A program made the translations under genes and the position numbers. From assembly GCF_964355755.1 (NCBI RefSeq), contig NC_092673.1, forward strand, positions 7,817,001 through 7,881,000: DNA of 64,000 bases. The letters are read 5' to 3'. The first letter of the stretch is position 1, and every line of letters starts with the position of its first letter. Positions 52,443-62,190 of this stretch are shown here, piece by piece. The stretch comes from Antedon mediterranea. Its lineage: Eukaryota > Echinodermata > Crinoidea > Comatulida > Antedonidae. A model generated the notes under the pieces. It had not been told where the DNA came from and searched no databases. It saw only the letters and a program-made list of their open reading frames with translations.

Positions 52443-55400
52443 TCATGATTCTGTTTTTGATTTCTTTGATTCAGGTTCTTCTGTGTCTTTACTGACTGTA
52501 GACTCCTTAGTCAGAAAGGCTGCAAGTTTTGTCAGTGCTTTACTTCGATGAGATATCGAGTTCTTGACAGCATCAGTCATCTCTGCATAACTGTTAAACA
52601 AAATAAAATAAAATCTTATCAACAAATTGGAATGAGTTCCCAATATGAGTAGAATATGGAGAGAAGTCCAGGCTTTAAATTTCATATTTAAATAATTATT
52701 TGAGTTTTTGTAATTAATTCATATTTATTGCAAGGTCTTTCTTTTTTTGGCTTTATTATTATTTTAATTACTTATTGTTGGCATGAGCTTTGCATAATGA
52801 ACATATAATACCCGAAATCTTTCATTTGTAAACATATTGACTACACTCTTATCGCGGCTACATTCGGTCATCAAATCATTGATGATAATACTAAATGGTT
52901 CCATCGTTTCTATCGAATCCCTATAAAAATTGAATATTGTTAATAGACCCACTAAGTTCAGTGGAAAGTGGTTAATATTCTCCATAACCCCACATTATAT
53001 CATCGAACCGTTTATCAAAATAATTGTATTCCGATAATTGTTGAATGAAAAATGATTTTCCCGAGGTCAGCCCGCTAATTACAGTGGTGAAGGGGGTTAC
53101 TAGCACACTCATCTTTACATTTATAATGGATTTCTTAATCATCATAGCAAACATCAACACTACGCACATCTTTTGTTGTTGTCTACGTTAACATTAAGAA
53201 ACCGACCAGATTTAAGCAAATATGTGGACAAAAAAATTTTAATATTTAATTTCCAGACTGGTTTCCCCCATATTCTACTATAATTGACACAAAATATTTT
53301 GACGTAAACAAAACCATTAAAAAAAAAATGTTTAACACGTAGCAACATGAATAATTAGTATAGTTTACAAATCAAAACATTGGTAACTTACGTTTCATCA
53401 AATCCATCAGGTTGAAAACATGGATCCCATCCAAATGTTGTCTTGCCTCTTGGTTCTACAATTTTACCCTGAGGAATATACAATAGAAATCCTGTAAACT
53501 GGAATATGAATACCCCATTTATTTGAGGGTTTTTAGGGGCCGTTTATTTGAGGGAGGCGTTTATTTTTTGGGATGTAACATTGTTGTATAATCAAATAAA
53601 TACCCAGGGCTATATGAAAAAAACACAATTAATATCAAGAAGTGATAAAATACATCAAAATGCTTTGTAAATTGTAGATCATGCCAAACAATGAATTCTA
53701 CTAAAAATAGAAATGTGTTGTAATAAAATATTGTGTGTATGCATGTGGTGGGGCCTTTATTTGAGGAAAACGTTTATTATTTATTCCAAATAATGTTCTA
53801 TGGGGGCATTTATTGGAGGGAGGCATTCATCAAAGCTGGGCGTTTATACAATAAATACGGTATGCATCAAAGCAAATGCCTATTAAAATATCTAGTACTG
53901 AACTCTTGACCTCCATGACCCCCCTAAACCAATGAATCTAGAAACTTTTATTCTTCATGGACATGTCCCATCCCCTGATAGGAATATCATGTACAAACAG
54001 TAATTTTTCAATCAACTTACCGGGGTTTTACCATGAAACAATTGAACTTCTTCACCTGGTCCAGAACAATATGCAAATGTACATAATGCATATGCAGATT
54101 TATCTTCCCATCCAGTAAGCATACGATGAAGTCCTTGGTAGATAAAGAAAGTAACTCCCTAAAAGTTAGTATGTTTAAATAATAAAATATGCTGTATTGT
54201 ATATTAATACAATGAACGAAAATAAAAGTGATAATTATAAAGGGTTTGTTCAGACTTATGGAAGTATGTTTAAAGTTTATTGGCATCAACCACAAAAGAT
54301 TAGTGTAAACCACCTACAACACTGATGTTTAGTTTTTATTCAAAAGCTGCAACATCTGAACATACCTAAAAAATATACTACCTGGAATAAAAGCTTATCT
54401 TTCTTTCTATAATTATTTCACATGTTCTTAAAAATAACAAGACATGTTCTGTGCTTGACATTAGGGTGCCATTTGCTAATAAAAGTCCATCCAAACGCTA
54501 CCCCAGAAAAAGGGTCAATTACACACACTGAAATTAAAAAAACTATTATATTACACAATAAGGATGGCTTACCTTCTGGACCTAATTTTTCTAAAAACCA
54601 TTTTCTGAAAACAATGTAACATATGTATGACTTAAATTTAAAAATTCTGTACTGTACTTGTAATAAGCATTACCATTGTGATCAACAAAGATGCTTTTTA
54701 TATTTAAAACTTAGGTACAGGCATGAATTTGTCAATAAATCAAATATGTATAAACATGAATTTCCCTTAAAATGGTTAAATAAAAAATTTGGCAAAATTC
54801 AGACATACTTTTTTTCAGTAGTTAGGTAGTTTAACCTAAGGTATTACATGTCTGGTGACTCCCTAGAAAGGGGAAAAAAGATGGTGGGTATAAGGTGGAT
54901 AATTGTTTTTTAGATTTGATTGTGTAATTTCTCCCCATGGTTATAAGTGCTAATTTTCAAAAAGCTTAATAACATAAATAAAACCTTAAAATTATGAAAC
55001 ATGTAATAAGCATTACCATTGTATCAACAAAGATGCTTTTTAGATTTAAAGCTCAGGTACAGCCATCAATTTTAAAAATAATAAATATAAAAAATTATGA
55101 AACACATGGGAAACTATAGATTAATAATTGGAATGCATGATCAAGATGGGACAGTTAACTGGTTTTGGGGGGAAATTTCCTAAACAATTTTAATTTTAAA
55201 ATACTTACATATATGGACCCGGCAAACCACCAAGAGCATTGAAACATAAACAAGTGTCCTCAACAATCAGTGACCCTTTCACCTATAAAAAACAAATCAA
55301 ATAAATACTATAGTATATTTTTATTTTCCAATGTTTTTATTTCTGGCCAGTATCGCTTCAGAAACTCTAATTTGTAAATGCTTGATCTCTATTGCACATG

Positions 55401-57420
55401 CGTACAATAAATAATTTTGGTTCTGGTTTGGGCAACTTATTTCATTATCGCAAATATTGTCATGTTTCAAAATAATATAAGATTTGTTACCTCTTTTGTT
55501 GCCTCTTTGCACTTGTTAATGCATATATCATCTGGTTCTCCTTGAAACTCTGGCACTGGAAAAAGCAAATATCAGATACGGTAAATAATAAAATCATCAA
55601 CAGTCTTGTTTCATTTATATACTGTACCTGGGCATATTTTACAATTGTGATTTTAAAGATCAATATATTTTTCTTTATTTCATCATACACATCCAACAGC
55701 GAGTAACCCACTAATTACAGGATGGATAAACTACTTATTTAATAATTTATCGTGCTTATAAAAGTAAGTCTCATTTATAAAGGCTTAGGAGTGGAGTTGA
55801 AAGAGTCTGAACCTCGGGGTTGGAAGGCAAGCATTAACCATCAAACTACAGCTCAGCTACAGCTCCATTACAAATCTAACAAATTGAGGGGTTCTAATAT
55901 ACCGGTAATCTACAAAGTACACTATCCATCTCTTTACCATTTTATTTTCATTCATGAAATCACAAAAATAAAATTGATAAAACGAATATGTGGTAACTTA
56001 CAGTCAATTTTCTGTGATACAACTTGTATTTGTTCACCTAAAATAGCTTTAACCTTTTTATGCCAAAAAAAAGAAAAAAAACGTGACCTTATATTTCAGA
56101 AACTAAGTCAGATTTTCATTATTATATCTTTAATTGTAATATTTACTTTTGAATATACATTGTTATCCCTAAAATAATATACATAGAAAGAGCTTCTATC
56201 TATAATAGGCTAGGCCTATTAAAAAGAAACGAGCACCGGCGAAAGTTAGCATTTGGCGTTTCATAGAAAATAACGTTTTTCTGGCGGCGGCTCGCAATTT
56301 GTTTTTTCGTACATAAGTTGGGGACCTCTCATGAAACGTCACAAAATAAACATGAATAATTCATCAGTTAAATTTGTTGTTCCGTGTGCACCCAAGCGTA
56401 TTTAGCAACAAGTGATTACAACTGCAATACGATTCTTTCTAGGCCTAGGATTCTAGGTCAATTCATGTGATTGCCTTCGCGCACTCTTCTTCACACACAC
56501 CACTATGCAAAATGTGGCAAGACACATTCAACTAAGTAGTAATTGGACATAGCTCAAAAAAACCCACGAGAATAAAGAATGTGTAAAATTTTTGTACTGT
56601 ATTTTTTAAATAATGCATTTACTCAAAGGAACTTTAAAAATGCGCATATATAAACACATGAGATGGAATAAAAAATGTATTTTAGTGTAATGTAATTGTT
56701 TAATTTTGCTGACTTATTACTCGGACTGTGTCATACCTAACACACACACACGGAATACTAGAATAGACATGGGCTTTAGAGACCAATAATTAGGCCTAAT
56801 AAATAGTATTAATAGAAACTATAATTTTAACACGCGTTATTCTTTAGTAATAAATTCTATCAAAAAACACCATTAATACTACTAAAGGCTGATTATTTTG
56901 ACAATCCACACAAAACGCCGCTATTCTTTTATGAAATCGCATGCCGCAACCCACAGCGGAGAGGATAGGCCTAGAATTGTATCGCAGTTGTGTAATCACT
57001 TCTTGTTGCTATACGCTTGGGTGCACACGAAACAAGAACATTTAACTGATGAATTATTCATGTTTATTTTGTGACTTTCACGAGGGGTACCCAACTTATG
57101 TACGAAAAAAAAAATCGCCGGCGGCTCAACTTGGCCTAATCCATAGGAAGGAGATAGTAGGCTATCGAGGCCTAGGTGAGGCTAGCTCTGGCCTTGCTAG
57201 GCCCAGGCCCACTAGCAGGCTAGGCCTAGCCCTCTAGGAGCTACCCACCTAGGCTATAGTTCTTCAAGTCTGAAGTTTGCACTAAATTGGAAGAAAAAGA
57301 AAGGGCTAAATAACCCTAGGCTAATTATTTATTAAATATTGCTATAATATACAGTGTTACCTCTCTTAATTTATTGACATTTCCTGTAACAAATATTAAT
57401 TTTCTAATCTCTTTCGACAT
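52443..57420 (-). CDS. ITPA: inosine triphosphate pyrophosphatase, complete 8-exon gene
   Basis: ITPA hydrolyses ITP, dITP and XTP to the monophosphates plus pyrophosphate in the cytosol, keeping deaminated purines out of nucleic acids. Exons in transcript order: 57420-57361, 56053-56002, 55555-55491, 55282-55209, 54604-54573, 54133-54021, 53468-53392 and 52590-52443. All junctions are GT-AG and in phase, 621 nt, 206 residues plus TGA. Family signatures: TGN (12-14) with NKLRE, PEFQGEP (38-44), [20 protein letters not shown] (66-85), [23 protein letters not shown] (143-154) and the SHR substrate-binding motif (170-172) within YAEM...SISHRSKAL. Human ITPA has 194 residues; this one has a charged C-terminal extension (about 181-206, ending KKSKTES). 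A second copy of exon 1 lies at 61797-61856 and could serve as an alternative start. The proximal exon 1 has GNVNKL where the family usually has GNA-K. Confidence 0.95.
53505..53870 (+). repeat. TTTATTTGAGGGAGGCGTTTAT repeat
   Basis: Repeated words (atttatttgaggg, gggaggcgtttat, gggcgtttatacaataaata) at both ends of a 365-bp segment in ITPA intron 6. Probably a MITE or simple dispersed repeat. Confidence 0.6.
54640..55075 (+). repeat. diverged direct duplication in ITPA intron 4
   Basis: The segment cttgtaataagcattaccat ... aacaaagatgctttttatat at 54656-54728 recurs at 55003-55072, with offset about 345 bp and roughly 80% identity. Confidence 0.7.
56294..57118. mobile_element. Mutator-like MITE with long inverted repeats and 9-bp target duplication
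   Basis: An 825-bp element in ITPA intron 1. Its terminal inverted repeats are about 145 bp long: left from gcaatttgttttttcgtaca, right its imperfect complement ending gtacgaaaaaaaaaatcgc. They include tcacaaaataaacatgaata and gtgtgcacccaagcgta in both arms. It is flanked by a perfect 9-bp direct repeat, CGGCGGCTC (56285-56293 and 57119-57127). Long terminal repeats with 9-bp duplications point to the Mutator superfamily. No transposase frame. Confidence 0.85.
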
Positions 57421-57450
57421 TTTCAATTTTTGTTTTTCGGCTGTTCACAC
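57109..57450 (-). repeat. ITPA exon 1 duplicon, proximal copy
   Basis: A 342-bp segment containing ITPA exon 1 (57361-57420), its donor, an AGGCCTA-rich stretch and the last 10 bp of the Mutator-like MITE. It matches 61494-61886 almost base for base outside small indels. Because it includes the MITE terminus, duplication followed the MITE insertion. Confidence 0.9.
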
Positions 57451-58460
57451 AAAAAATCGAGTGTTGACAAAGTGCGAGGCAGCGAGGCAAGCAAGGCATG
57501 CCAAATATTTGTGCGAGGCATCATTTTATCATTTCCAAAAGTGCGAGGCATGCAAGGCATATAGTTTACAATTTCAAAAAGGTGCGAGGCATATCTTAAC
57601 GTGCTATTATGCTATATTATAGGCCTAATAATCAATCGATACAAGCGTATCTAAATAGATTCGTGTATACACTCATCATGTTGTTTATTTTTATGTAACG
57701 ATTGTTTTTTAATTCAAGTCATATCGTGTCAAATTTTACTTTTACAAAAGTGCCCAAACTACGGTTCAAAAATCTGAACGACAGTCTTCAACTTTCGATA
57801 AACAATAATTGTTATAGCGACACACTCATCAAATGACTGCAATGTTTGTTGGCATTTCGAGCGTGTTCACTCACATGGCTCTCGAACATAGCAGAGTGAA
57901 AATAATATGTTGTCACACCCCTGCGCCTAGATCCGGTAGACCCGAGAGATGGAAAATCCCTCTTTACTATATAGCAGTAGCGGAATGATTCAGCCCTCAG
58001 CTCAGAGGATTGTGGTGCATTCCCCTCCTATAGCACGTGGTTTCAGCAGCAACGCACAGGCTTCTCTCTGAGCGGCGTGCCAAAGACATTTTTGACATTC
58101 CATTCTCTAGGAACAACACGTGTACCTCTCTCGCAAATAAGGTGAACAGCGATTGCCAGGACAAGTTCAATAACTGGCGGTGAATAAAAGGTAACTGATA
58201 TGCCGATCCAATAACATGCCGCAAAGAAAAACAAATTGCGACAGAATTCTGGAGCGCGTGTGAAAAAAGACTTACGTCCGACAATTGTAATACTAGGCCT
58301 AAAATTAAACTTTAGCTAATATGCTTAGCCCTAACCTAGATAAGAGGCCTATGTAGAAAATAATTTAATCAATTTTGATATAATAATAATTGGTGTAATA
58401 TTTAATAATGATACACTATTCCTGTTTTAGTAAGCTAGGTATATTGCGAACGATTTGTAT

Positions 58461-59228
58461 TTACGCCGTGGTTAGGATTCCGGCACCGGAACTCAACTGC
58501 CCAGCGTTAGGGAATCCGACACGCTATTGCGCATGCCCAGAGCGAAGTAATTATAGCTTTGCACTTTACCGCGCACCACCACACCACCGGCGAGAGTCGG
58601 AGAGTGTTAGGGATTTACTGTAGCCTATTGCTGCCTATAGTTAGTCGTTGCGCGAGCGAGAGAGCGATGGATGAAACTTCCTTGGCCTAGCCTAGCCTAG
58701 GCCATATGAATTAATAATTAAAATACCACTACGCCACGCGTTAAAATAATTATTATGATATTGATAAGAATCAGCCTATCTATCTAAGAATCGTAAGGCT
58801 GTAATTTTATTAGACAGAGTGAATAGCGTAGCGACCCCGACTTCCCGAACGGTTCTGTTTTTTTCACATCATATCTGCGTGGCGGCTGCCGTCAACAAAT
58901 CAACTTGTATACGCATGTTATTACAGTATAATGCGTTATATGAAATCTTTTATTTTGTACTTGAAAAATCATAAAACTAGTCAGGAAGCAACCATTTTTT
59001 TAATTACGAAATAAATAGGCCCCTGGTCACATTTAGCTGGTAGGCATCTAGGCTAGTTCGCCGTGGCGCAGCTATAATCCATCGCTGTTTATAGTCTGCT
59101 GTAGATGGATGGATCGAGTATAGAGTCGCCGATTACCTCACTCTGGGCATGCGCAATCGCGTGCCGGATTCCCCAACGCTGGGCAGTTGAGTTCCGGTGC
59201 CGGAATCCTAACCACGGCGTTGTATTTA
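58461..59228. mobile_element. foldback element nested in the 4-kb insertion
   Basis: Inverted arms of about 85-90 bp at over 90% identity (left with acgccgtggttaggattccg and gcgcatgcccagag; right the complement at 59139-59228) around a roughly 590-bp spacer. No transposase. Confidence 0.8.
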
Positions 59229-59229
59229 T

Positions 59230-60590
59230 TGTTGTCCATGTACGTACTAATAAACCTGGCGCTAGTTTCCTTCGCTTGTATTTTTACTCCAAATTTGATA
59301 ACTAACTTTATCGTGTGAATACCACACCTTAGAAGTATACCTCATGAGTACTTTAACCGATTCACCACGATAAGCGCTTAAAGCGCTCAAAAGGTTAAAA
59401 GTCAAGGTCATTGTAAACAAATTATCAACAACAAAAAAGTAAATCGAATTTACATGCGCAGTTTGCTGTGCATGAATCGTAACAACAAATTATACAAAAT
59501 ACTCACAACTTCTTTTTTAAAAATATGCTTCTAAATATATAAAAACAATTGTTGAAGTTAGTTTGAAAATAAAATTCGAAAATATAACCGTTTTTCGAAG
59601 CACGCTGTTCGAAACGCGACAGGCGCGTTGAATGAATCTAGGCCTAAACATACAACGTAAAATCGTCTAAAATCCATCTTTATTTCTGATAATCACTATT
59701 TTGAAGCTTGTATACAATAAATGTATAATAAATAAAGATTATGTATCAGTTACAGTGTCTAAATCGTCATATTTCCATGTAAAAATGTGATTTTTCTACC
59801 GGAGAAAAGTCGTGAAGATGTCCTCACTAGGGCCGCGCCATATTGTTTACCTTTGATTGTAATATGAACCCTGACATGTCAGATGCATTATGGGCATGAA
59901 ATATTTGTTCAAACTCTGCGCAAAGGTCAGTTTATTGAAGCATAACTTTTGACAAACATTTTGATACCAAACTTGTTTTAATTTCATAAGTTTTCGACGC
60001 ATTTTCGTCAAATTTTCTGCAAGCTACACGTCTAAAACAGCGGACTAAGCTCCCGAGGGATGCCGGTGCGCGTGAGAATCCCGAATTCCAAGTCGCTTTC
60101 GGGATGTTTTTTTTAACATTCCCGGTGAACAAACAGCGGCGACGACGCTCTCGGGGCGGCTCCCGATAGGCCTAGGCCCCATATGGTCATCGTCGGATGA
60201 GTCAGTCTACTAATTTCTTCATAATTTCGAAACCGGTCATTCATAATGGTCAAGTTTGGTCTTATTTTGAAGAGAAGAAATAGGTTCTGATGAAGAGATG
60301 AGTTTTATTATGAAATATTTATTAATTTTTGTGCATTTGGTAGTCAAAGATAAATTACAAATTTTTAATAATTTTCCTAAAATATTTCTAAAATTTGCAT
60401 AATCCATACTCCGCCAAAATAAGTTGTAACACAAATTTGATAACATATTTGGAAATAAAATGTCCTTTGCATTATTTTTGTTTTTTAATTTTTTTAATGT
60501 CTGTGTTTAGAAAAAAAGTTAGGGTTAATTATATGACATATGCTTTTTGGGTCCCAGGGGAGCAAAATAAACTTAGGGGTCAATGGGTTA
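59230..60590. other. interior of the 4-kb insertion, no gene seen
   Basis: Moderately GC-rich in patches (60040-60170), with no splice-supported or recognisable coding sequence. The ORF 59932-60132 is unassigned. Confidence 0.45.
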
Positions 60591-60592
60591 AT

Positions 60593-61244
60593 GAAAGAAT
60601 CACATAAAAAGTAACAAATAAATCCTTAAATTAATGATTTTACAGGCGTGTTTCTCGCACACTGTTCGCGAATTTCACTTATTCAATGTTCAATATTTTT
60701 GTTTCTATGGAGCGCCAAAAGAGCAACGATAATAGAGGACTAAAACTCAGTGGAATGCGTCAATTTCTCATGCATTTATTGGTGAAAAACACGTTTTATT
60801 TCAATATATTTGTTAATTTGTCAATAAAAATGTTGTAATATGTTACTGCTGATACTGTTCTGTTTTCAAAGAATAATAATCGATCCTAAATCAACATCAC
60901 TACCTAGTCTAGACCTAGGACATTCTACTAAGGATATTATGATGAATTTTTCTATTTTATTCTTTAAAAAAAGGTTAACGAAACCGTGTACATTATCAAC
61001 AGTAAAATTTTTCCTTACTGACAGTGACAAAATCTATTGAAATTGTACTTGATTTTCACCAAATAATGCGTTAAATATAAATGGATTCCACAGAGTTTTT
61101 AGCCCTCTAATTAATTTTGCTCTTTTGTCGTTCCATAGAAACCAAAATATTGAACATTGAGTGTGCGAAATGCGAGAAAAACAACGTCTGTAAAATCACC
61201 AATTTAATGGATTTATTGTTACTTTTATGTGATTTTTCTTCATT
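60593..61244. mobile_element. second foldback element nested in the 4-kb insertion
   Basis: Inverted arms of about 150 bp: left 60593-60758 with tcaatgttcaatattttt and gattttacaggcg, right 61082-61244 its imperfect complement. The spacer is about 320 bp; the ORF 60840-61040 inside is unrecognised. Confidence 0.8.
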
Positions 61245-61493
61245 AAAGTAGGCCTACTAATTCTAAGCTGTGGTATTCAGGATAAAGTTGGTTAAAATAC
61301 AAGGCAGGTGCAAAAGGAAACTAGCCTAGCGGGCCTAGGCCTAGGCTACTTCAATTTCGGTGATTTCCTGCCTTGCAATTTTGAGAAATGATAAAATGAT
61401 GCCTCGCATTTTTTGATGATGGTAAAACGATGCCTCGCATAAATTTCTGACTTGCCTCGCATGCCTTCCCTGCCTCGCACTTTGTACTACCCC

Positions 61494-61886
61494 AAAAAAT
61501 CGCCGGCGGCTCAACTTGGCCTAATCCATAGGAAGGAGATAGTAGGCTATCGAGGCCTAGGTGAGGCTAGCTCTGGCCTTGCTAGGCCCAGGCCCCCTAG
61601 CTAGGCTAGGCCTAGCCCTCTAGGAGCTACCTACCTAGCCCTCTAGGAGCTACCTACCTAGTTAGGTGCTATATAGGCCTAGTCTTCAAGTCTGAAGTTT
61701 GCACTAAATAAATTGGAAGAAGAAGAAGGGGCTAAATAGCCCTAGCTAGGCCTAGGCTAATTATTTATTAAATATTGCTATAATATACAGTGTTACCTCT
61801 CTTAATTTATTGGCATTTCCTGTAACAAATATTAATTTTCTAATCTCTTTCGACATTTTCAATTTTTGTTTTTCGGCTGTTCACAC
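61494..61886 (-). repeat. ITPA exon 1 duplicon, distal copy
   Basis: Counterpart of 57109-57450, longer by a local duplication of a ctaggagctacctacctag word and other AGGCCTA-type indels. Beyond 61886 the sequence (ttctcacacactcacaaact) differs from that beyond the proximal copy, and is presumably the ancestral upstream flank of ITPA. Confidence 0.9.
61797..61856 (-). CDS. ITPA: alternative ITPA exon 1 (distal copy)
   Basis: Encodes the same 20 residues as the proximal exon 1 except Ala for Val in the nucleotide-binding TGN segment (TGNANKLRE). ATG is at 61856 and the same GTAAC donor follows at 61796. The frame joins in phase to the exon at 56053-56002. Since this copy keeps the presumed original upstream flank and the usual residue, it may be the principal start exon, with the proximal copy skipped or used from a separate promoter. 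If used, the transcript must splice out the whole 4-kb element. Confidence 0.7.
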
Positions 61887-62190
61887 TTCTCACACACTCA
61901 CAAACTGCTAGGCCTACGCACGTGTTGCTCTCTCTGGAAATTGTTATACACTATGGAACGCCATTTGTGTCTTTCTGACAATTAAACTTTTCACAAAAAC
62001 ATTTATTACTGAACAGAATATAATTCTTTAGAACATATTCATTTTAAAATTTAAAAATTAAACAACAAATTAATTGGTGTATGTGTCGTCACAAGGTAGA
62101 CTGCTTTAAAAGCAACTTTGATTCTCTCACAAAGTATACAAGAAAGAATTTAAAATGTTATAAACAAATCTGGATGTGTAAACTGCCACT

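Follow-up and report, generated by a model that had tools for sequence, protein, structure and literature searches.

The locus described here has its closest relatives in several known systems. The protein encoded by the gene is full-length and has the exon-1 motif TGNxxK, as well as conserved residues along the whole protein, in common with the inosine triphosphate pyrophosphatases ITPA/Ham1/RdgB (Pfam PF01725; human structure 2CAR; E. coli structure 1K7K), the difference being that exon 1 is present twice here. Known tandem exon duplications and alternative first exons share with it a direct duplicate of a first exon and in-phase splicing; in contrast, the duplicate studied here has no native upstream region. 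Non-autonomous Mutator-like (MULE) DNA transposons and the element that separates the two exon copies have a 9-bp target site duplication (TSD) and terminal inverted repeats (TIRs) starting GAG/GGG in common, whereas no autonomous partner is linked to the ends found here, and a long internal inverted repeat makes the element partly foldback-like. Finally, piggyBac-like MITEs share a TTAA target duplication and ends starting with CC with an element nested further inside, but the latter has no transposase, and its superfamily is assigned from its ends only. Literature searches returned no direct match for the combination among titles and abstracts. The locus is a new instance of well-known processes and its history neat but ordinary; its value lies in preserving, cleanly and in dateable form, five rearrangements that followed one another at the start of a single gene, with their order given by TSDs and nesting.

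The minus strand of the window, i.e., the entire stretch of 64,000 nucleotides that was analyzed, carries a complete eight-exon ITPA gene, in which all exon boundaries are AG/GT and the exons form a single continuous frame of 206 aa. The distal (5') copy of exon 1, which aligns to human ITPA, lies at 61797-61856 on the minus strand and comprises 20 codons followed by the donor gtaacactg. Exons 2 to 8 occupy 52443-56053 on the same strand and complete the 206-aa coding sequence (exon 2, 56053-56002; exon 3, 55555-55491; exon 4, 55282-55209; exon 5, 54604-54573; exon 6, 54133-54021; exon 7, 53468-53392; and exon 8, 52590-52443). The protein matches the PF01725 (Ham1) domain over its full length with 185.3 bits when it includes the distal exon and 183.2 bits when it includes the proximal exon, both above the curated cut-off of 22.5 bits, and its best match among all solved structures is human ITPA (E=6.5e-81). 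In a genome-wide profile search, the other Ham1 exons matched at this locus only, once each.

The initial annotation proposed that two near-identical segments each carry ITPA exon 1 with an ATG and a donor that would splice in phase to exon 2, and that the encoded peptides differ at one residue. All of this was confirmed. The distal copy of the unit extends from 61494 to 61886 (393 bp) and the proximal copy from 57109 to 57450 (342 bp); the two differ by 8 substitutions in 342 aligned bases, and indels, most of which lie in CTAGG-rich sequence, add about 51 bp. The unit comprises exon 1, preceded by 30 bp of 5' leader and followed by the beginning of intron 1, and also takes in the final 10 bp of an older MITE. 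Genome-wide it occurs twice, and the remaining matches cover short pieces of its repetitive part. The proximal exon 1 (57361-57420, minus strand) also has 20 codons and the donor gtaacactg. Both copies retain the ATG, a 60-nt open frame and the identical donor junction GAG/gtaaca, and, judged by frames and splice-site sequences, both join exon 2 in phase. Their only codon difference is GCC (Ala) in the distal copy versus GTC (Val) in the proximal copy. We conclude that about 0.35-0.39 kb covering the start of ITPA was locally duplicated in tandem. At 61603-61661, a 23-bp unit (CCTAGCCCTCTAGGAGCTACCTA) is doubled in the distal copy and single in the proximal copy, a minor repeat change that arose locally once the duplication had taken place. 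That two haplotypes were instead joined into an artificial duplicate during assembly is exceedingly improbable: the ends of the duplicated block are sharp and unrelated to any overlap, exact TSDs flank the element that separates the copies, each Ham1 exon detected with the profile has a single match in the genome, and the contig, at 36 Mb, is the size of a chromosome.

Human ITPA has Ala at the variable position, and for this reason Ala is probably the ancestral state. The Val of the proximal exon differs from human ITPA and is shared with E. coli RdgB (TGNVGK). Because RdgB has Val, and because Val in place of Ala lowers the Pfam score by only about 2 bits, the substitution is likely tolerated and unremarkable. 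With Val normal in the superfamily and the change in score small, the earlier suggestion that the Ala and Val isoforms might differ meaningfully is weakened.

The two copies of the unit are separated by a non-autonomous Mutator-like element at 57459-61492 on the plus strand, with the TIRs GAGTGTTGACAAAGTGCGAGGCA and GGGTAGT(A)ACAAAGTGCGAGGCA. Its boundaries are fixed by other copies of the family. About 30 left and 30 right ends showed that the element starts with GAGTGTTGAC and finishes with ACTACCC; these ends also give the start as GAGTGTTGACAAAGTGCGAGG and the end as GCACTTTGTTACTACCC, and the TIRs have G-rich starts (GAGTGTTGACAAAGTGCGAGG and GGGTAGTAACAAAGTGCGAGG). Six other copies that were fully read have exact 9-bp TSDs at identical boundaries (GCCTAGGAG, TTTATAAAT, CAAAAATAG, CCTTGTATT, CTAGGATTG, and AAGGCTAAG). 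Accordingly, the TSD of the window copy is CAAAAAATC, located at 57450-57458 on the left and at 61493-61501 on the right. The initial annotation described a 4.03-kb element with a 9-bp duplication; the length of the duplication holds, while its sequence has to be corrected from AAAAAATCG to CAAAAAATC, because the other copies shift the element ends leftward by one base. The interpretation as one single 4-kb element had to be abandoned, as the 4.03 kb consist of three elements, i.e., a host of ~2.03 kb and two nested insertions of 756 bp and 1,231 bp. Intact members of the family are about 2.04 kb long. Alignment to them splits the window copy into three blocks (57459-58463, 59220-59356, and 60588-61492), and this copy has 14 differences from the family consensus in 1910 positions (0.73%; 0.40-1.2).

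More than a hundred left ends of this family are present in the genome. We found no transposase frame in the window element. The genome contains 36 matches to the MULE transposase domain, in long open frames that reach about 700 aa, none of which, by coordinates, was seen inside the listed copies of the family. At 60588-61294, the family carries its long internal inverted repeat, which matches its own reverse complement at about 69-70% and is foldback-like. Separately, in five other copies (L018, L031, L050, L054, and L072), the left or right end is present again at a distance of about 160-300 bp; these partly repeated termini suggest end duplication during transposition or self-insertion.

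The older MITE, whose last 10 bp lie within the duplicated unit, is 825 bp long and located in intron 1 (56294-57118), flanked by the 9-bp TSD CGGCGGCTC at 56285-56293 and 57119-57127. Most other genomic copies of this MITE are 89-96% identical, and their matches start no more than a few bases from the same point. The MITE predates the duplication, since the duplicated unit starts within the final 10 bp of that element. The TSD of the Mutator-like element places the next two events. The proximal unit ends with the first C of CAAAAAATC, and the distal unit opens with the AAAAAATC that follows, so that the duplication join falls between the C and the A. Since the target spanned an existing tandem join, the duplication preceded the insertion of the Mutator-like element. 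The order MITE, tandem duplication, transposon, as proposed initially, is therefore upheld, and with more force than before, as the corrected TSD draws its bases from the two units that meet at the join. The opposite order, with the transposon entering first, is disfavored by the C in the right TSD, where entry into a single-copy locus would have left AAAAAAATC.

The two copies of the unit have diverged by 2.3% (95% CI, 1.0-4.6), i.e., about 1.2% per copy. Compared with 0.73% for the transposon, this is compatible with the duplication having come first but is no proof of a time gap. For two independent events, a 9-bp target would span the join in a 735-bp tandem pair with a probability of about 1% (a window of about 10 bp), and independence thus involves a coincidence of this size. 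A preference of the family for A-runs, which might have caused the coincidence, is unsupported by flank composition: the mean A+T content of 53 distinct 9-bp flanks is 65%, similar to that of the window, and they revealed no such preference. The coincidence of join and insertion site within the 9-bp target could also be accounted for by a single linked event, e.g., a break at the insertion that was joined to the sister chromatid. We consider this very unlikely, as the right TSD carries a C that is found only at the join, and entry at the MITE end of a single-copy locus would read AAAAAAATC.

These data support a history in which the start of ITPA was duplicated, the Mutator-like element inserted across the join, and two further insertions into the element followed. 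As for the consequences for the gene, the native upstream sequence on the promoter side (61887-62100, minus strand), which is the putative promoter region, adjoins the distal exon only, while at the proximal exon the native sequence extends just 30 bp upstream of the ATG and then gives way directly to the transposon terminus. It is likely that the gene works as it did before the duplication, with the native promoter and the Ala exon in use and the Val exon a relic. Transcription would begin at a predicted native promoter beyond 61886 and include the Ala exon (61797-61856), which would be spliced over about 5.7 kb to exon 2; the proximal Val exon would leave with intron 1 as a passenger, an intronic relic.

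The open frames, the shared donor and the matching splice phase of the two exons, together with the tolerance of Val in the family as seen in TGNVGK of E. coli RdgB, would also fit the use of both exons, with the transposon terminus serving as promoter for the proximal copy and giving Val and Ala isoforms. However, the proximal copy no longer has the native upstream sequence in front of it, and no promoter is expected in the element because it is a short, non-autonomous copy in which no transposase frame was found; we therefore regard the use of both exons as unlikely. At about 2% divergence, the intact frame and donor of the proximal exon are only weakly informative on its use. The more specific proposal that the transposon would have turned a dead duplicate into a second, separately regulated start exon, with Ala and Val isoforms of ITPA, appears quite unlikely; on this reading, both duplication and insertion may be recent enough to be still polymorphic. 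The functional part of the initial annotation, with its two candidate start exons and a transposon promoter, gained no support. Were the proximal exon expressed, the locus would offer a simple natural experiment on the ability of transposon ends to rescue promoterless duplicated exons.

The rearrangement also created a candidate splice acceptor, TTTTTTGTGTGAACAG/CCG, in which the join sets a T-tract before AACAG. Through it, the proximal copy might be included as a poison cassette exon in readthrough from the native promoter; distal exon 1 plus the cassette translates to ...LREPKNKN, followed by an immediate in-frame stop. The acceptor is only putative, and such inclusion would be harmful, making this outcome highly improbable. 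The favored reading remains transcription from the native promoter with the Ala exon.

The first of the two nested elements, of 756 bp, lies at 58464-59219, has the TIR CGCCGTGGTTAGGATTCCGG, and is flanked by the 9-bp TSD TTGTATTTA at 58455-58463 and 59220-59228; its relatives show no more than 97% identity across the compared stretch. The second (59357-60587) is a 1,231-bp piggyBac-like non-autonomous element with a TTAA duplication. Sister copies of the host carry the empty TTAA site TTTAATGAAAG, reading TTTAATG, versus TTAA on both sides in the window copy. The 1,231-bp element is 100% identical over 258 bp to at least 12 other genomic copies (e.g., G000:C9:5659243 and G000:C8:7642749). Based on this identity, it moved very recently, and its family may still be active. 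The 756-bp element and an insertion in another Mutator-like copy (L079:1104-3489) are different elements with related ends (CGCCGTGG... and CGCTGTGG...). Their insertion points lie only a few bases apart in the two separate copies, and both have T-rich duplications, a pattern consistent with a possible insertion hotspot in the Mutator-like element.
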